The notes under the pieces were generated by a model, which was not told the DNA's origin, did not search any database, and saw only the letters and a list, made by a program, of their open reading frames with translations. Source: a virus. Taken from it: a stretch of DNA of 21,762 nt. Positions 2,250-21,762 of the stretch are shown piece after piece; the stretch's first letter is position 1, and each line of letters begins with the position of its first letter. The DNA is taken from the IMG/VR virus record IMGVR_UViG_3300024318_000017, positions 1 through 21,762 of that record; one strand, given 5' to 3'. The position numbers and the translations under genes were made by a program.

Positions 2250-4049
2250 TTAAGAGAACATTCCTGCGCCCAGTGTTAAGTAGTCAAAGAAACCAGGGTT
2301 CCTCTGCGTGGTTTGAGTCTGCGGTATTGGAGCTGCGCCGAGAGCCTGTGACAACAATCCGATAGATGTGTACGGAGCCTGTTGATAGCCCTGGAACTGC
2401 GCCTTAGCTGCCTCAATAAGCTGCTGTTGTAGAGCCTGCTGCAACATACCCTGCTGCTGTAGGTTCTGGTTAACAGTCTGCCCCATGCCGAAGCCAAGGT
2501 TAGACAGTGAGCCCAGTTGACCTGCCGCGCCAAGACGCTGCGATGACCCAGTAAGACCTGCTGCCTGGTTAGCAAGCTGTGCCTGAAGAGACTGTGAGGC
2601 GTTAAACTGTCCAGCCTGGTTAAGTGCTGCCTGATTCGCCAAAGCCGCCTGATTAGCTGCGCCTGCGCCAAACTGCGACGCCTGGTTAAGCGCTGCTTGA
2701 TTAGCCAGAGCTGCTTGGTTCGCGGCAGATGCCCCAAACTGAGAAGCCGCCTGCTGTTGTGCAGATGCCTGTGCAGCGGCTTGGTTCTGAGCCCCTGCGC
2801 CAAACTGTGCCGCTTGATTCGCTGCGGCTTGATTAGCAAGAGCAGCCTGATTGGCAGCAGATGCGCCAAATTGACTTGCAGCCTGTTGTTGAGCAGATGC
2901 TTGCGCTCCAGCGACGTTAGCAGCTTGTGCGCTAAACTGTCGAGCCTGGTTCTGCGCAGCCTGGTTGGCAAGAGCTGCTTGGTTAGCAGCGGATGCACTA
3001 AACTCACCTGCACGCATACCAGCCGCCTGATTGGCCAGGGCTGCTTGTTGTGCCAGGTTAGCGCTAGTAGTGCCAGCCTGTAGACCTGCCTGCTGGTTAG
3101 CAAGGCTAGCCTGCATTCTTCCAGCAATGTCTTGTTGCGCCATGCCCTGGGCTTGAGTAAATCCAGCCTGGCGTAACTGACCTGCAGATCGTGCGGCTTG
3201 TTCGGCAAATGCTCGATTAGTCTCGGCCTCCATCAAAGCCTGTCGAGAACCACCAAAAGCACCTGCTGCGCTTGCTTGAGCTCCAGCCTGGCCCATTGAT
3301 ATCTGTCGGGCGCGATCTAGGTCAGACAGTGTAGACTGCACAACTTGGCTTTCATAAGGGTTGTAATACTGACTTAGGTCAGTGCCAGCTAATTGGCCAG
3401 CCGTCACATCTCTGGACGTTACTGTCGGTGCTGCACCTAATCTTTCTGCGCCAAATCCAGTTGCCCCGGTGCGAGCAGCGTCATAACCCTGAGCGTCTAA
3501 TCCAGCAGCCTGGAAGCCAGTAGCGCCTGCACGCTCTGCACCATAGCCTGTTGCGCCTACATCAGCACCCTGGAACCCTCTAGCGCCAGCCTGAGCTGCG
3601 CCATAGCCTGTTGCGCCAGACTGAGCCGCCTGATAGCCAGGAGCTCGTACATTCATGGGCTGATACTGCATCTCTCTAGCAGCACCAGCCATAGCGCCCT
3701 GAATACCCTGCGCGGCACTTTGATTAATGTTTGGAGCTTGCGGAGCTTGCTGTTGCTGCTGCTGTTGCTGCTGCTGTACGCGACCGCCAGCTTTACCGCC
3801 ACCACCAGCGGGAGGCGCCAGCTTAGGTCCAGACTGTGGCGCAGGAGCCCTTTTATCCAACAGATGGCTTGGCGGCCTTACAGGGCCTGATACACGCATT
3901 GCAAGCTCATCTTGCGGTACTGGTCGCTGTCCTGGCGGTTCCGTTACTGACGGGCCATAGTTAACCTGAGATGGGGATGTAGGGCCAGGCTGCATTCTTT
4001 GCGGTCCAGCCATGCCTACTTGTTGTGGTACACCGTTACCTGAAGCCAT
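2250..4049 (-). CDS. Ala/Gln-rich repeat phage structural protein (putative ejection/tail component)
   Basis: A 599-residue protein in four zones. Residues 1-90 are Pro/Gly-rich. A run of ten glutamines (92-101) follows. From about 140 to 210 there are tandem repeats of about 9-10 residues built on GATGYGA/GARGFQG/GATGFQA. A conserved core with QYYNPYESQVVQSTLSDLDRA and AGAFGGSRQALMEAETNRAF spans about 225-290. Then about 200 residues repeat A-N-Q-A-A-L-A-N-Q-A-A. The core matches a pattern found in many podovirus-like phages and prophages next to terminal structural genes. The repeats are predicted helical and could form a long coiled or amyloid-like assembly, but that is inference. Start and stop are set by TAATG coupling to the upstream 283-residue gene. 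The repeats look like a DNA repeat array but keep frame throughout. Confidence 0.85.
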   Translation of the reverse strand: MASGNGVPQQVGMAGPQRMQPGPTSPSQVNYGPSVTEPPGQRPVPQDELAMRVSGPVRPPSHLLDKRAPAPQSGPKLAPPAGGGGKAGGRVQQQQQQQQQQAPQAPNINQSAAQGIQGAMAGAAREMQYQPMNVRAPGYQAAQSGATGYGAAQAGARGFQGADVGATGYGAERAGATGFQAAGLDAQGYDAARTGATGFGAERLGAAPTVTSRDVTAGQLAGTDLSQYYNPYESQVVQSTLSDLDRARQISMGQAGAQASAAGAFGGSRQALMEAETNRAFAEQAARSAGQLRQAGFTQAQGMAQQDIAGRMQASLANQQAGLQAGTTSANLAQQAALANQAAGMRAGEFSASAANQAALANQAAQNQARQFSAQAANVAGAQASAQQQAASQFGASAANQAALANQAAANQAAQFGAGAQNQAAAQASAQQQAASQFGASAANQAALANQAALNQASQFGAGAANQAALANQAALNQAGQFNASQSLQAQLANQAAGLTGSSQRLGAAGQLGSLSNLGFGMGQTVNQNLQQQGMLQQALQQQLIEAAKAQFQGYQQAPYTSIGLLSQALGAAPIPQTQTTQRNPGFFDYLTLGAGMFS

Positions 4050-9518: not shown

Positions 9519-12293
9519 TTATGCTGAGCGATAAGTAATCGTGCCTCTAAACTCGCCTGTACCTATATGTGCTGCTGTTAAATTGGTGTTAGATGCCCCT
9601 GTGCTTGATGTGGAACCCATTACATACAATACAGTTGTGGTGGCTTCGGCATAAACGCTCGGTGAGTTTATTGTTGTTGACCAATTTTGCCAGTAACTAA
9701 CTGATCCGTTTGCCTCAATACCTGTTGGACTTAGAACATCCGCAACAGTGAATGGCATACCTCTAACTTCTAATGATCCAGATGCACCATTAGTGTTTGA
9801 GCAATCTGCTTCAAAATTGATCGTCACCAAGTTGCCTATTTTTACATACGAGCCGCCATACTCACTTAAAGCTAATTGTGTCCCACCCGCCCAAAGCTCA
9901 ACATTGAAAGTCCCCTCCTCATAGTCTTCCAGCTTATTAGCAGCACCTGTGCCGCCTAAGTAGACACCGCCTGACAGGTAGAGGTTTTTGAAGCGTTGGC
10001 TAGATGTGCCTAGCGATATAATTGCATCACGCGAACCGCCACTAGCATTAGTTGGGCGAAGAACATTATTAGTATCGTCCAGCATGATTCCTGTATTAAC
10101 GGAATTAATAGCCAAAGTGCCGCTGTAAGTACCAATACTACCTACGGTTGCGCCGTCTTTTTGAAAGCCTAAAATGTTTCCGTCCGCAGTGCTTCTATTG
10201 ACTGAAACAACATTGTTAGTATCGCCTGAACCTAAGGCGCGTGAAAAGAAACTCCCGTCAGTTCCTCTTATGCTTACACCAGCCGTTGTGTTGCCAACTC
10301 CCGGAATAGTCGTGCTGGACTGACCCACCAACAGGTTGCCTGACCCGTCAAACCTACCATACTCAGTAGCGCCATCAGCCTGAACAAAAGATATACCATC
10401 ACCATTTTTGTCGTTAAGCTGTAAACCACCAGAGCCAGTAAGATACTTCATTGAGCCGTAGGTGGCGTTGTCTCCACGATAGACTCTTAACTCTTGACCG
10501 CCTTTTACTTCCACATTCCCTGATGAGTCTATGCGCATGCGTTCTGTGTCGGCTGTATTAAATACTAGAGGGTCAGACTCTATAGTTCCAATGTAACTTG
10601 CAGTAGTGTTTGATAGCAATCTAAAGGTGTGAGTCCCGTTGTTTTCAATATCAATGAACCCTCCATAGGTAGCGTTGTTAAGCGTCAAGCCTGTATAGTT
10701 AGTTACAGCGTTTGGACTGCTTGTACCAATACCCACGTTGCCTGATGAGTCGATAGCCATACCAACAGTTGTGGCTTCGTTATTATTGTCTCCACCAACC
10801 AGAAATTCAAGCTGTCCTGCGCCTGCGCCTGTGACAGTTGGCTTAATGCCTGACCTACTTGCTCCCCCAGAAACAGCAGGGAAGCCTAACGTCATCTCGT
10901 TAAAACCAGTGATAGACATTTTACTATTAGGTGAACTAGTACCAATACCCACGTTGCCTGATGAGTCTATGCGCATGCGTTCTGAGGTATTTGTGCCTAG
11001 ACGCATTGAGTCTGTATTATGGTCGTACTGTACAAACCCGCTATAGCTACCTGTTCCTGTAGCGGCATCACCAAAGAAAAGATTTCCAGTAGTTGTCGAG
11101 CTACTCGCTATTAACATAGAAGTATCGGCTGTTGTTCCTGCTGTTCCTATTGTAAGAGGATAGCTAGGCGAACTAGTACCAATACCCACGTTGCCTGCGC
11201 CAGTAATAACAAAATCAGATTCAGTTGTTCTTGCAGACAAAGATAGTAAACGACTAGATTCCGTAGTATGGGGGTAGTATGAAATCTTGCCATCACTCAA
11301 CGCGTCATCACTAAACAAAATAGATGCGCGGTTGTTGTTAGTACCGCCTCCGCTGATTCTAAGCTGTGAGTTTGAAGTATAGGCAGTACCGTTAGCGGCT
11401 GATGCAACTATTTTACTGGTGAAGGTATTCGTACCTCCAACTGCTAATGCCTCCGCAGACGCATCCCAGAACAACTTAGCCGTTGTGCCTGTGTCCTCGT
11501 AGAAGCTGATATCGCCGTTGTAGTCTATTTTCTGACGCAGTTTTGCATTTGTGTAATTGTAGATATGACCACCTGAAACATTACCTGCGCCAATATCTAA
11601 AGTTCCACCTAATGAAGCATGTTCATTTCCGTAAAGTCTAACTCTTGCACCCCTAGCATCGCTGTTAGCTCCACCGCCAGAAACAGCCAGTACACCATTA
11701 TCAGAGCCATCAGATGTATTTAATCTAATTGTATCCCCTGTTGTAAATACAGCATCCCCATCTACAGTCAGACCATCGCTGGTCACTGTGCCAGTAACGT
11801 CTATGCCTGTGGAGGTGGTTTCAAACTTTAAACTATTGTCGTAATAGGCTTTTACAGAACCATTGACGTTAAAATGAGCAATTTCTTCGTTTGTACTGCT
11901 ACGCAGATAAATACCATCTCCGTTACTTCTTATAAACAAATGCCCTGTTGCAGTCTCATCAATATAGCTATTAGACCCATCATGGTAAATCTGTAGGTCA
12001 GAGCCAGCACCAAACGTAGCCTTGTCATTGTCGCCCAATGCAATGCCACCGTTGGCTGTGATTTCGCCAGAGGCAGATAAAGTAGTAAACGCGCCAGTAG
12101 ATGCAGAGGATGCGCCGATAGTCGTGCCGTCAATAGTGCCTGAGTTGATGTCAATCCCGGTAACAGGCGTGGTCCCGTCAAGCAGGTTGTCCAGGCTGTC
12201 CAGGTTAGTGTTTAGCTTCTCGCCCCATGTATCTTCTGAAGCGCCAACTTCCGGCTTAGTCAAACCATAGGTGGTTGTAGTTGTATCAGCCAT
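9519..12293 (-). CDS. Tail fibre protein with [10 protein letters not shown] repeats
   Basis: The 924-residue receptor-facing fibre candidate. The N-terminus ([20 protein letters not shown], then [10 protein letters not shown] and [20 protein letters not shown]) is the usual fibre start in marine phages. The shaft contains [10 protein letters not shown] three times, at about residues 370, 440 and 520, with a degenerate fourth ([15 protein letters not shown]). Such repeats occur in trimeric beta-structured fibres. The C-terminal 140 residues begin [14 protein letters not shown], the common lead-in to a globular tip, with [15 protein letters not shown]. No chaperone-of-endosialidase cleavage motif is visible at the end. 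The gene abuts the 232-residue gene with no gap (TAA then ATG). Internal DNA repeats of 28-29 bp could drive fibre shortening or exchange. Confidence 0.92.
10519..10546. repeat. 28-bp direct repeat in tail fibre gene, R2 copy 1
   Basis: On the plus strand this segment (beginning CCTGATGAGTCTATGCGC) is identical base for base to 10957-10984. It encodes the RMRIDSSG part of the fibre repeat. The exact DNA identity, despite freedom in third positions, suggests recent duplication or gene conversion. Confidence 0.85.
10723..10751. repeat. 29-bp direct repeat in tail fibre gene, R1 copy 1
   Basis: The plus-strand segment starting GTACCAATACCCACGTTG is identical to 10939-10967, and its first 22 bases match again within 11170-11197. 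It encodes the fibre motif [11 protein letters not shown]. Confidence 0.85.
10939..10984. repeat. Tail fibre repeat, R1 copy 2 joined to R2 copy 2
   Basis: This block joins the two repeat types. Bases 10939-10967 match 10723-10751, and 10957-10984 match 10519-10546. Upstream bases from 10933 also match the third copy at 11170-11197. It encodes the complete [17 protein letters not shown] unit. Confidence 0.85.
11170..11197. repeat. 28-bp direct repeat in tail fibre gene, R1 copy 3
   Basis: The segment beginning GAACTAGTACCAATACCC is identical to 10933-10960. It encodes [10 protein letters not shown] at about residue 370 of the fibre, preceded here by a different codon context (GAGNV rather than DSSGNV). 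Confidence 0.82.
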
Positions 12294-19193: not shown

Positions 19194-19265
19194 ACTACAA
19201 TGTACAAAGATAAGTCCGTTTCAGCTCCTGGTGGACCAGGCCAGGTCAAAAGGTCAAAGGAGACC

Positions 19266-19466
19266 TCAGCCTAGGGGGTAAGCTATTAACTGATACCCTA
19301 CAAAAGTGGCTAGCAAAAGGGTCGTGGCTATGAAATGTATCCTATGCACTACTACCGGCTCGGTGACCCACGCTCTAAAACTACTGACTTTCGCCTCGAT
19401 GTAAGACTGCCTGATGGCTTTGTCAGCGTAGGCGTTAGCCTCATAAATTAGCGTTTTAACGTCCAT
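19266..19466 (-). CDS. Small protein with one C-terminal membrane helix
   Basis: A 66-residue protein: a soluble helical N-terminus (MDVKTLIYEANAYADKAIRQ, SYIEAKVSSFRAW) and a hydrophobic segment at about 44-64 (IHFIATTLLLATFVGYQLIA). The ATG overlaps the preceding stop by one base (TAATG), so it is coupled to the 151-residue gene. It is not a recognised family. Probably an inner-membrane protein with its N-terminus in the cytoplasm (inferred from the HRIH charges before the helix). Confidence 0.7.
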   Translation of the reverse strand: MDVKTLIYEANAYADKAIRQSYIEAKVSSFRAWVTEPVVVHRIHFIATTLLLATFVGYQLIAYPLG

Positions 19467-19921
19467 TAATGGCTCCCCATAGCAATTCTATCAATATGGC
19501 AAAGGTCTGCAAATGAATCCATCACAAGCTCCTCCATGCTTGGCTCAAGATACGAGTATATCTGCTCGCGTATCTCCTCCAAGAAGTCAGGGCTATCCAG
19601 TATCGCCTCAAAGTCGTCCAAAGCCTCAGATAAGTAGGCATCGTTGTCCACATCTTTGGCGTTGCGTTCTGCAGCATCACGGAACATAGCAGCAGCCATC
19701 CTGGAGGTTGCGTCCTCGCTGTAAACGCACTCCAAAGCCAGCATGCGCTTATCGCTTACTGTGTGTGGAAATACGTCATCCATCCAGGTTGGGTGAGTTG
19801 CAAGCCATAATGCTATCATCCCGTCTTTAGCAATGTCAGGCAGACTTTGGTAGCTGCCCTCCCACAATGGGTTTTCATCACGAATTAAGCCCACTGCTTC
19901 ATTTAGTATTTTGTAACTCAT
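19466..19921 (-). CDS. Acidic phage protein of unknown function
   Basis: About 151 residues from ATG 19921, chosen because it forms a TAATG overlap with the previous stop and has a G-rich ribosome-binding site eight bases upstream. A GTG at 19927 would add two residues but lies too close to that site. The protein is helical and acidic: SYKILNEAVGLIRDENPLWE, DIAKDGMIALWLATHPTW, MAAAMFRDAAERNAKDVDND and FLEEIREQIYSYLEPSMEEL. No motif I recognise. It sits between two genes for single-helix membrane proteins. Confidence 0.72.
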   Translation of the reverse strand: MSYKILNEAVGLIRDENPLWEGSYQSLPDIAKDGMIALWLATHPTWMDDVFPHTVSDKRMLALECVYSEDATSRMAAAMFRDAAERNAKDVDNDAYLSEALDDFEAILDSPDFLEEIREQIYSYLEPSMEELVMDSFADLCHIDRIAMGSH

Positions 19922-20088
19922 TAGCACACCCCCAGGTTTTTACAGTCAAAGTAAGACATGTTTGATACCAGAGCAAAGATGATCAACACTATCAAAACCC
20001 CCACAAAGCCCTCGCGGCTCTCCGCTATATCCTGCTGCGCCTTGATGCGAGCATTGGACTCTTTTAAACAGCACTCATTGATTCGCAT
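19921..20088 (-). CDS. 55-residue single-span membrane protein
   Basis: I place the start at ATG 20088, which has AAGGGG six bases upstream. The longer frame, reaching 20190, would run through a GC-rich hairpin and into the upstream gene. The protein begins MRINECCLKESNARIKAQQD and has one hydrophobic segment (GFVGVLIVLIIFALVSNM, about 27-44), followed by a short polar tail with two cysteines. Its leader resembles that of the 93-residue gene (CAATCAAAAA, then AAGG). Function unknown. A small regulator or lysis-timing protein is possible. Confidence 0.65.
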   Translation of the reverse strand: MRINECCLKESNARIKAQQDIAESREGFVGVLIVLIIFALVSNMSYFDCKNLGVC

Positions 20089-20111
20089 ATTATTCCCCTT
20101 GGTTTTTGATT

Positions 20112-20127
20112 GCCCCCCGTAGGGGGC
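20112..20127 (-). ncRNA. GC-rich RNA hairpin with UACG tetraloop
   Basis: In the minus-strand transcript GCCCCC-UACG-GGGGGC forms a six-base-pair stem closed by C(UACG)G, a member of the unusually stable UNCG tetraloop class. It is followed by AATCAAAAACC, not a U-run, so it is unlikely to be an ordinary intrinsic terminator. It lies between two small genes, with its 3' edge 23 bases before the ATG at 20088. Roles as mRNA stabiliser or processing barrier are inference. Confidence 0.55.
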
Positions 20128-20137
20128 GGTTTGATTA

Positions 20138-20419
20138 TTAAGCCCAGCTAGGTTCATGGTTAACAATGTAGAGCATTTCTCTCTTTTCACCTTTTTCAGG
20201 GTGACCAGTCATTTCAAATTCTTGCAACCCGATATCATTTGATTCGAGCAGGCTACCTATTGTTCCTTCTGCGCTTTTGCGCTCCCAGCCGTTTTCGGTA
20301 AGCATTTCAATTAGGTCATCCATCCAGAAATAATCGCCCCACTCAAAATCTGATTCACATTCGATAAAGTCATGAAACACTGCAAGAGCCGCTGTTTGAT
20401 TAGAAGTTAATTTAGTCAT
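20138..20419 (-). CDS. Small acidic phage protein downstream of a strong promoter
   Basis: A 93-residue protein from ATG 20419 with AAAGGT nine bases upstream. A longer frame from 20482 is rejected because it would run through the promoter and leader. Sequence: MTKLTSNQTAALAVFHDFIE, EWGDYFWMDDLIEMLTENGW, RKSAEGTIGSLLESNDIGLQ and a final strand REMLYIVNHEPSW. The helical layout with a possible winged-helix feel (ENGW-RKSAEGTIGSLLESNDI) suggests a small regulator, but no close family is recognised. It is the first gene after the near-consensus promoter at 20454-20482, so it is probably well expressed. Confidence 0.72.
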   Translation of the reverse strand: MTKLTSNQTAALAVFHDFIECESDFEWGDYFWMDDLIEMLTENGWERKSAEGTIGSLLESNDIGLQEFEMTGHPEKGEKREMLYIVNHEPSWA

Positions 20420-20453
20420 TTGTTTATTACCTTTGTTTTTTGATTGAGGTGTA

Positions 20454-20482
20454 ATAATACCCCCCAACAAATAAACTGTCAA
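20454..20482 (-). promoter_or_regulatory. Near-consensus sigma70-type promoter
   Basis: On the minus strand TTGACA (20482-20477), 17 nt, then TATTAT (20459-20454). This matches 11 of 12 consensus positions with ideal spacing. It lies between the stop of the AT-rich HNH gene and the ATG at 20419, with a predicted start near 20447. It probably uses unmodified host RNA polymerase and may start transcription of the genes from 20419 onward. Confidence 0.8.
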
Positions 20483-20504
20483 GCTTTTCGGTTACAAACA
20501 GATG

Positions 20505-20517
20505 AAATTAATTATAT
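20505..20517. repeat. 13-bp direct repeat, left copy, at the 3' end of the inserted HNH gene
   Basis: AAATTAATTATAT on the plus strand, identical to 21002-21014. It covers the last codons and stop of the AT-rich HNH gene. The two copies are 497 bp apart, bounding that gene. Confidence 0.8.
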
Positions 20518-20984
20518 TTTGCGCTTTTAATTAGGTTATCTTTAGCCCACAAAGGTTGCAAATTTGATGGGTGGTTAATTACATCAAAATCATTTATACC
20601 GTTATCTAAAAAATCTTTTATTGGCCTAATGTGATCAATATGCCATTCCTTCCTATTCTCCCAGCTCATCCCCTCACAAAATAAAGACTCTATCCGACTA
20701 ACAACAATATTATCTTTCTTGATCAGGAGCCATCTTAAATGCGCTCTTATCCTATTAGATACTTTAGTCCTTGCGTCATCTCTCTTGCAGTAAAAGCAAG
20801 TCTGGCATTCCAAAAACCTTTTCTTTGCGCCGACACCTGTAACGCATTCACACCCATCATCTTGCCAAAACCCTTCGCTTAAATATGATTCCCCGCTACC
20901 AAAACATAAATCACACCGGCTGCTAGGACGGTAATAATCAAAATCCAAAAAAGAAAGCATTTTCTGCCCGCAGCATATATCCAT
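20508..20984 (-). CDS. Free-standing HNH endonuclease, AT-rich, likely mobile
   Basis: A 158-residue protein. The HNH core is EWHIDHIRPIKDF (D117, H118, P121) followed by HPSNLQPLWAKDNLIKSAKY (N141, N150, K153), the standard pattern of HNH homing-type nucleases. The N-terminal half is Cys-rich (CDLC at 24-27, C45/C47, CQTCFYC at 60-66) and probably binds zinc. Three sampled 60-base lines are only 25-37% GC, against 60% in a sampled large-terminase line, suggesting separate origin. The gene is bounded by a 13-bp direct repeat. Removing one repeat unit would join the upstream HNH gene cleanly to the promoter at 20454. It probably cuts DNA at a site in related phages lacking it and spreads by repair (inference). 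The ATG at 20984 has GGGGA upstream. Confidence 0.88.
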   Translation of the reverse strand: MDICCGQKMLSFLDFDYYRPSSRCDLCFGSGESYLSEGFWQDDGCECVTGVGAKKRFLECQTCFYCKRDDARTKVSNRIRAHLRWLLIKKDNIVVSRIESLFCEGMSWENRKEWHIDHIRPIKDFLDNGINDFDVINHPSNLQPLWAKDNLIKSAKYN

Positions 20985-21001
20985 AATATTCCCCGTTATT
21001 T

Positions 21002-21014
21002 AAATTAATTATAT
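21002..21014. repeat. 13-bp direct repeat, right copy, at the 3' end of the 129-residue HNH gene
   Basis: AAATTAATTATAT, identical to 20505-20517. It encodes the final Tyr-Asn-stop of the 129-residue HNH protein, just as the other copy encodes Tyr-Asn-stop of the inserted gene. Confidence 0.8.
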
Positions 21015-21394
21015 GAGACTGGCTCATAGCTCTCATCAGCGGTCATTTTCTTATGCTCTTCTCGGTAGTGCTTGGCTATCTCTGCCCTTAGCTTCTTGTT
21101 GGTTGGCATTAGCACCTGCCACTTCTCTCTAAGCATATCCAGGTGGCCCTGGCCTAGATGCGACTCAAGCCATACACTGAAGTCGAGCGGGTTGGCCGTA
21201 AACACTTTATGGCAGTAATGGCACAAGCATAGTGCGTTATCCATAGACCAGCGCACCGACTTAGCTGCCCTGCCCCAGATATGTGCGCACTCCATCCTGC
21301 CATCTTGCTTTCCGCAGTGCTCGCACTGGAAGCCAGCCTTCTGCCTGACCACATCACTAAACCACTTGTCTGCAGCGTCGCGCTTAATCGGCAT
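21005..21394 (-). CDS. HNH nuclease, possibly NinG-like or packaging-associated
   Basis: A 129-residue protein starting MPIKRDAADKWFSDVVRQKA. The zinc/HNH region runs FQCEHCGKQDGRMECAHIWG (C24, C27, H38), then SMDNALCLCHYCHKVF (N53, C56, C58, C61, H62). This C-x2-C ... AH ... N ... C-x2-CH layout fits HNH nucleases and resembles the NinG recombination-protein type. HNH proteins also help terminases cut DNA in some phages, and terL is about 3 kb downstream. Which role applies cannot be settled here. The ATG overlaps the DUF3310 gene by 11 nt. Confidence 0.85.
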   Translation of the reverse strand: MPIKRDAADKWFSDVVRQKAGFQCEHCGKQDGRMECAHIWGRAAKSVRWSMDNALCLCHYCHKVFTANPLDFSVWLESHLGQGHLDMLREKWQVLMPTNKKLRAEIAKHYREEHKKMTADESYEPVSYN

Positions 21395-21683
21395 CGTCGA
21401 ATATCTCGCGGCTGATTAGCTTCGCCAGGTACCACTGAGCTTTCTGCAGGTCCTCAACAGGGTTGTTCTTATAGGTATACCGCCATAGATACTTCATGCA
21501 GTTGCCTTTCAGATATCCGCGAAATGCCTCTGGGGTCATAGACTCCTCAATGGCCTCGATGCACTCGATGCCGCCGGTTCTATAATGGCTAGGGCTGTTA
21601 ACCGCATCATCTTCTGGCCAATCTTCGATAGCTGGTATAGATTCCTTTAATCGTCGCCAATCTTCGCTTGTAGCGTGCTTCAT
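21384..21683 (-). CDS. DUF3310 protein (phage SaV-like)
   Basis: A 99-residue protein with the full DUF3310 pattern: NSPSHYRTGGIECIEAIEE (29-47), FRGYLKGNCMKYLWRY (54-69) and NPVEDLQKAQWYLAKLI (74-90). The family is widespread in phage early and nucleotide-metabolism regions and has been called nucleotide kinase-like, though its biochemical role is unsettled. The extra N-terminal 28 residues are polar and probably disordered. The ATG overlaps the upstream stop by four bases (ATGA), indicating coupling. Confidence 0.92.
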   Translation of the reverse strand: MKHATSEDWRRLKESIPAIEDWPEDDAVNSPSHYRTGGIECIEAIEESMTPEAFRGYLKGNCMKYLWRYTYKNNPVEDLQKAQWYLAKLISREIFDDAD

Positions 21684-21762
21684 TCTTCATTCTCCTCAAT
21701 CTGGATTTTAATTTCATCAGGCGTATTAAGATCGCAGCGGTGACATAAACCATAGCTATCAC
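21680..21762 (-). CDS. C-terminal end of a phage protein with CxxC motif (partial)
   Basis: A frame entering from the right edge encodes SYGLCHRCDLNTPDEI and then KIQIEENEE before TGA at 21680-21682. The ATGA overlap with the DUF3310 gene supports this frame over the other open one. The CHRC pair could be part of a zinc site. Only 27 residues are visible, so no function is assigned. Confidence 0.6.
   Translation of the reverse strand, partial: DSYGLCHRCDLNTPDEIKIQIEENEE

Follow-up and report, generated by a model that had tools for sequence, protein, structure and literature searches.

The stretch analysed here, nucleotides 1-21,762 of the marine phage record IMGVR_UViG_3300024318_000017 (hereafter the window), carries a gene for a 158-residue HNH protein directly behind the stop codon of a ninG/rap-like HNH gene. 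Two exact copies of AAATTAATTATAT, spaced by 497 bp, bound a unit in which this HNH gene is the only gene (Table 1). Both genes end in TAT AAT TAA (Tyr-Asn-stop) within the repeat. A sigma-70-like promoter of the next transcription unit (TTGACA-17-TATTAT) matches the consensus at 11 of 12 positions. A sequence-only reading of this DNA had described the perfect repeat, the shared protein ends and a promoter at 20454 behind the collapsed site, all of which we found as described, and had proposed an inserted homing-type gene with the host gene's 3' end copied.

Table 1. Features at the ninG locus; positions are those of the window unless a contig is named.
Feature	Position	Strand	Remarks
Right 13-bp repeat copy	20505-20517		Junction of the inserted gene's end with the host ninG 3' end; matches empty-site sequence of L073/L070/L075
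Left 13-bp repeat copy	21002-21014		Native 3' end of ninG
Inserted free-standing HNH gene, 158 aa (predicted endonuclease)	20508-20984	-	phrog_28061, phrog_1035, sub-cut-off PF01844; sole gene between repeats
ninG/rap-like HNH gene, 129 aa	21005-21394	-	Host gene at the site, intact; phrog_5034 (E-value 1e-18), Pfam NinG (2.7e-5)
Immigrant block, 556 bp	20498-21053		Missing from near-isogenic empty phages; co-conversion-like tract
Sigma-70-like promoter of next transcription unit	20482-20454	-	Outside the block; kept in empty relatives
Next downstream gene	20138-20419	-	Immediately follows ninG in the empty phages L048 and L076; start codon ATG read at 20417-20419, protein comparison made on 20138-20413
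Stand-alone 66-aa cysteine-rich remnant	L056: 4408-4611		HNH part gone, eight cysteines kept

The inserted gene and its repeat

A 13-bp direct repeat in an AT-rich stretch is by itself weak evidence, being only moderately improbable. Repeats of this length were reached in 20 of 1000 dinucleotide shuffles of 20001-21500 (2%) and, within 1 kb, in 46 of 200 shuffles of the whole window. Allowing up to two mismatches, AAATTAATTATAT has no copy in the window beyond the two described, and at least two such matches occurred in 8 of 100 shuffled windows. The weight of the repeat therefore comes from the comparison with empty sites presented below. The G+C content of the unit is low, as the sequence-only reading had pointed out (38.2% vs 49.8% in the rest of the window), but the sequence at 20.3-20.5 kb, outside the unit, is about equally AT-rich. 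Synonymous codon use of the inserted gene is ordinary and was rejected as a mark of foreign origin.

The inserted protein comprises an N-terminal module of eight cysteines (C4, C5, C24, C27, C45, C47, C60 and C63) and a C-terminal HNH domain. Residues H115, D117, H118, N141 and N150 of the latter are conserved in IMG/VR and cultured-phage relatives, a conservation that marks a nuclease motif with its catalytic residues. The protein matched phrog_28061 (E-value 1e-14), phrog_1035 (1e-8) and, below the curated cut-off, Pfam PF01844 (0.007). The CxxCxGSG spacing suggests that the N-terminal domain binds zinc. This domain was not found in cultured phages, whose matching proteins share mainly the HNH end. 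Compared with an 80%-identical gene in contig L004, described below, the nonsynonymous divergence (dN) was 0.13 and the synonymous divergence (dS) 0.78-0.95. The dN/dS of about 0.13-0.17 indicates a protein under purifying selection. NCBIfam, PADLOC and Rfam returned nothing for the insert, and a DNA-level search for cultured relatives returned nothing useful; no phage of this group was found among cultured ones. Among solved structures, phmmer gave only weak unrelated matches and a profile search gave none. A host search of genome contigs with the insert and ninG-like proteins found no relative. The AlphaFold model of the insert protein was poor, with a predicted local distance difference test score (pLDDT) of 51.

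Two candidate classes were rejected. One of the PHROG families matched is named 'endonuclease VII', recalling F-CphI and the DHHRN enzymes, which carry the endonuclease VII motif (PMC6083498). By the definition given there, the insert protein is HNH rather than DHHRN/endonuclease VII because it has DHIR in place of DHDH and keeps the conserved central Asn of the HNH kind, N141. Nor is it an intron- or intein-encoded homing endonuclease, since the insert lies behind the ninG stop codon; positions 20300-21700 gave no Rfam match at an E-value of 1 or less.

Empty and filled sites in related phages

A search of IMG/VR with the ninG protein yielded 80 contigs. Four carried the insert (L001/L015, L002/L016, L003 and L005/L017) and five an HNH-less remnant of it; in the remaining 71, other sequence lay directly behind ninG. 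The gene thus has a fixed site and is optional there, close relatives having the empty allele. The sequence-only reading had looked to related phages for a single repeat copy at an empty site, and such sites occur in L070, L073 and L075. Their ninG ends in TATAATTAATTTCATTTATTTGTA, a single repeat copy of at least 12 of 13 bases, and the window's right flank follows. A scan with the window's right junction recovered three filled contigs and the empty L073. L048 and L076 are also empty; in them, a homologue of the window's next gene (74-79% identical) comes immediately after ninG. Two divergent versions of the inserted gene occupy one and the same site behind ninG.

An assembly artefact was rejected: the left junction is common to four contigs from different metagenomes and the right is spanned by three. 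A chance AT-rich repeat beside an ordinary, vertically inherited gene would fit the frequency of such repeats in shuffled local sequence, and is nevertheless extremely improbable. The two copies bound exactly the unit that is missing in relatives of the second ninG clade (clade B) and adjoin the edges of the block that is missing in clade A; the empty sites already refute this explanation.

The relatives closest to the window overall (L018, L019, L024, L026 and L029) are empty phages of clade A. They are 93-97% identical to the window over DUF3310 and the body of ninG, and L019, L024, L026 and L029 are also ~97% identical in the terminase region. In the near-isogenic empties L018-L029, the alignment skips exactly positions 20498-21053 and resumes at the promoter. 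Besides the insert, the skipped block contains clade-B sequence on both sides, 49 bp from the ninG tail and 7 bp from the right flank. The unit between the repeats is accordingly the inserted piece in the clade-B comparison, as originally proposed, but the piece transferred to the window's lineage is larger. The one-copy empty site belongs to clade B; in the closest same-clade empties, ninG has another tail, followed by a terminator-like hairpin. They lack the single repeat copy because the insert reached the window's lineage together with donor flanks.

The switch within ninG from clade-A-like to clade-B-like sequence is abrupt. Nucleotides 1-330 are mostly 89-99% identical to clade A. Over nucleotides 342-387, identity is 54-75% to clade A and 84-95% to clade B, with other filled alleles at 95-100% in the last two bins. 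Over nucleotides 351-387, the values are 54-59% for clade A, 86-89% for the clade-B contigs L063, L070, L073 and L075, and 97-100% for the other filled alleles. On the right, the repeat is followed by seven donor bases (CATCTGT, minus strand) and then by clade-A sequence from TTGTAACCGAAAAGC. The crossovers lie at short common sequence, ACCGAGAAGAGCAT on the left and TTGTAA on the right. A scan with the clade-A right flank returned 25 contigs, three filled and 22 empty, and in all 22 empties the junction was without insert and belonged to clade A or its sister group. The donor tract was present in all four filled alleles, including the truncated contig L097, and in none of the 22 empties (Fisher p 7e-5, uncorrected for relatedness). 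Flanking donor sequence was thus carried along with the gene, as in co-conversion.

The alternative that the insert is ancestral and was lost by deletion between the repeats was rejected, as the clade-A empties have neither the repeat sequence nor the donor tail. The empty site, found in 71 of 80 contigs and far commoner than any other state, also speaks against this polarity.

The displaced clade-A sequence contains a terminator-like hairpin directly behind ninG (GGCTCT-AACC-AGGGCC-CTTTTATT, -8.1 kcal/mol; 4001-4016 in L030), which is missing from the filled allele. With this hairpin replaced by the block, the ninG transcript probably extends through the inserted gene. The block leaves the promoter of the next unit intact. 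The displaced hairpin shows how an insert can become wired into the transcript of its neighbour.

Spread, second insertion and remnant

Filled phages are more alike in the block than in its flanks. The window and L097 differ at 0 of 366 positions in the insert unit vs 17 of 630 in the flanks (Fisher p 0.0005), and L095 and L096 at 1 of 484 vs 19 of 630 (Fisher p 0.0003). For the window and L095, the corresponding values are 8 of 484 and 29 of 630; at four-fold sites, this pair has 15 differences at 73 flank positions and none at the 38 of the insert (p 0.002). In a tree of the flanks (630 columns, 19 rows), the filled alleles did not group, and a single clade was rejected by the approximately unbiased test (p-AU 0.009). 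These data indicate that the block moves horizontally and, on four filled alleles, that it has spread faster than the host genome. The tree itself may be blurred by recombination inside the flank, but block and flank would then still have different histories.

Genes between the post-ninG promoter and the terminase genes (19200-20420 and the same region in L018-L032, L095 and L096) are freely exchanged. Even phages that are ~97% identical in their terminase and ninG flanks differ in the first gene after a promoter that is almost the same.

A relative of the inserted gene was found in a second location. In L004, the 80%-identical gene lies in another gene junction and ends in AAATATATAAGGGG (KYIRGTK*), without TAATTAATTT. 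It follows that AAATATA belongs to the gene, and that at least the outer 8 bp behind the window's gene (ATTAATTT) are host ninG sequence, which bears out the earlier proposal that the host gene's 3' end was copied. The ATATA common to the gene's Lys-Tyr end and the ninG end is the likely joining point. The L004 insert is flanked by two copies of TAAGGGGAACAARATG (~16 bp), which comprises the next gene's ribosome-binding site and start. Its near-isogenic empties L107-L109 (97% identical to L004) have one copy. L106 carries a different insert of ~195 bp (323-518) at this junction. The L004 case is supportive rather than clean, since the L106 insert marks the junction as a general site of gene exchange.

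Direct repeats at both ends and a single copy in the empty site are also what a small transposon-like element would leave, the 13 bp being a target-site duplication from staggered cutting. We consider such an element very improbable: the unit holds only the HNH gene and no transposase, the repeat is not of constant length (13 bp here, ~16 bp in L004), its ATATA part is already present in the gene's own end and, unlike in transposition, donor flanks came along.

The remnant occurs behind a clade-B-like ninG in five contigs that are identical over the junction (the L056 group, one virus from different metagenomes) and in one partial contig, L121. Its 66 residues end in ...RDN-stop and are 49% identical to the first part of the insert protein over residues 3-63. 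ATAATTGATTT adjoins it on the left and ATAATTAATTT on the right; it has both repeats and occupies the same site. An HNH-less remnant is what decay after invasion would be expected to leave; this one may be decayed or domesticated. It is conceivable, if quite doubtful, that the eight-cysteine module represents a new DNA-recognition domain for phage gene junctions, and that the L056 remnant, as a domesticated homing enzyme, binds and protects the site (homing immunity) or regulates the adjoining genes.

Homing as the likely cause of mobility

The insert is probably a free-standing, intron-less gene for an HNH endonuclease of the homing type. The empty relatives bear out the insertion that the sequence-only reading had proposed; homing by cleavage is argued from sequence comparison. 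In this model, the gene first inserted directly behind the ninG stop codon in a clade-B phage. The right junction would have formed at the short common ATATA, by a joining step that duplicated ATTAATTT. The gene thereby took over a copy of the ninG Tyr-Asn-stop, leaving the 13-bp repeat and an intact ninG. As the mosaic block shows, the gene was later copied into clade-A phages along with donor sequence, ~49 bp from the ninG tail and 7 bp from the right flank, which replaced the recipients' own tail and hairpin. The putative driver is that the enzyme cuts empty alleles at the ninG end or close to it, with the filled genome serving as repair template in a mixed infection. Since ninG is intact and the next gene keeps its promoter, the host phage loses little. 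The cut is predicted, from the shortness of the tract, to fall near the insertion site.

Several observations weigh against this model. The known filled alleles amount to just four distinct ones, and the expected donor, a clade-B phage carrying the full gene, was not found. A far longer tract would be expected for the free-standing enzymes of T4, whose cut sites are distant from the gene by hundreds of bases or more (PMC2988022). In Pfam and PHROG, the protein is matched mostly at its HNH end, and the N-terminal 78 residues had no relative in 50,697 phage records at an E-value of 0.01. These phages recombine often, as the differing downstream genes of the filled alleles show, so that ordinary exchange could shift the block with no cutting involved. 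Bioinformatics alone cannot prove active homing of a nuclease gene (PMC10448857).

The insert might instead be a passive accessory ('moron') HNH gene, moved only by ordinary recombination at short common sequences and having another role, such as exclusion of rival phages or aiding recombination. The region behind ninG is indeed highly variable, genes behind the promoter are swapped freely, the crossovers lie at short common sequence, and L106 has its own insert at the L004 junction. However, the tract closely adjoins the insert on either side, the block is younger than the flanking sequence and does not trace to a single origin, and two divergent gene versions occupy one site. A passive gene also fails to explain why this family lies twice between short direct repeats of host sequence, and we regard it as unlikely.

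Known free-standing homing genes occupy intergenic sites and have co-conversion tracts (PMC2988022). Like the seg and mob genes of T4-like phages, such as mobE, the gene described here is intergenic and optional between close relatives, with neighbours unbroken and flanks co-converted. Unlike in those systems, the tract spans ~49 and 7 bp, pointing to a close cut as for intron enzymes, the ninG end was left as a direct repeat, and the accessory module is N-terminal rather than C-terminal. The I-HmuI-like HNH endonucleases of lactococcal Skunavirus are likewise encoded at particular places and vary between close relatives; marker exclusion was measured there (PMC12724721), whereas the present case is read from sequence. 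As for homing genes at phage exchange boundaries (PMC10448857), the nuclease gene lies at the edge of a mosaic segment beside a replication/recombination gene, but as a single gene with a very short tract and no island of cargo genes.

The window's insert leaves the known picture of phage homing genes unchanged. It provides a clean, base-resolved example of a homing-type gene at several stages (empty, filled with donor flanks, decayed) in near-isogenic marine phages, and its sharp donor tract yields a testable prediction of the enzyme's cut position.

Two further features lie elsewhere in the window. The 599-aa gene at 2250-4049(-) contains imperfect tandem repeats of 66/132 bp (2587-3004) and probably encodes a repetitive structural protein. 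Within a tail-fibre-like gene, 66 bp (11451-11516) match Roseobacter phage CRP-5 at 91% identity; no other near DNA match to a cultured phage was found.
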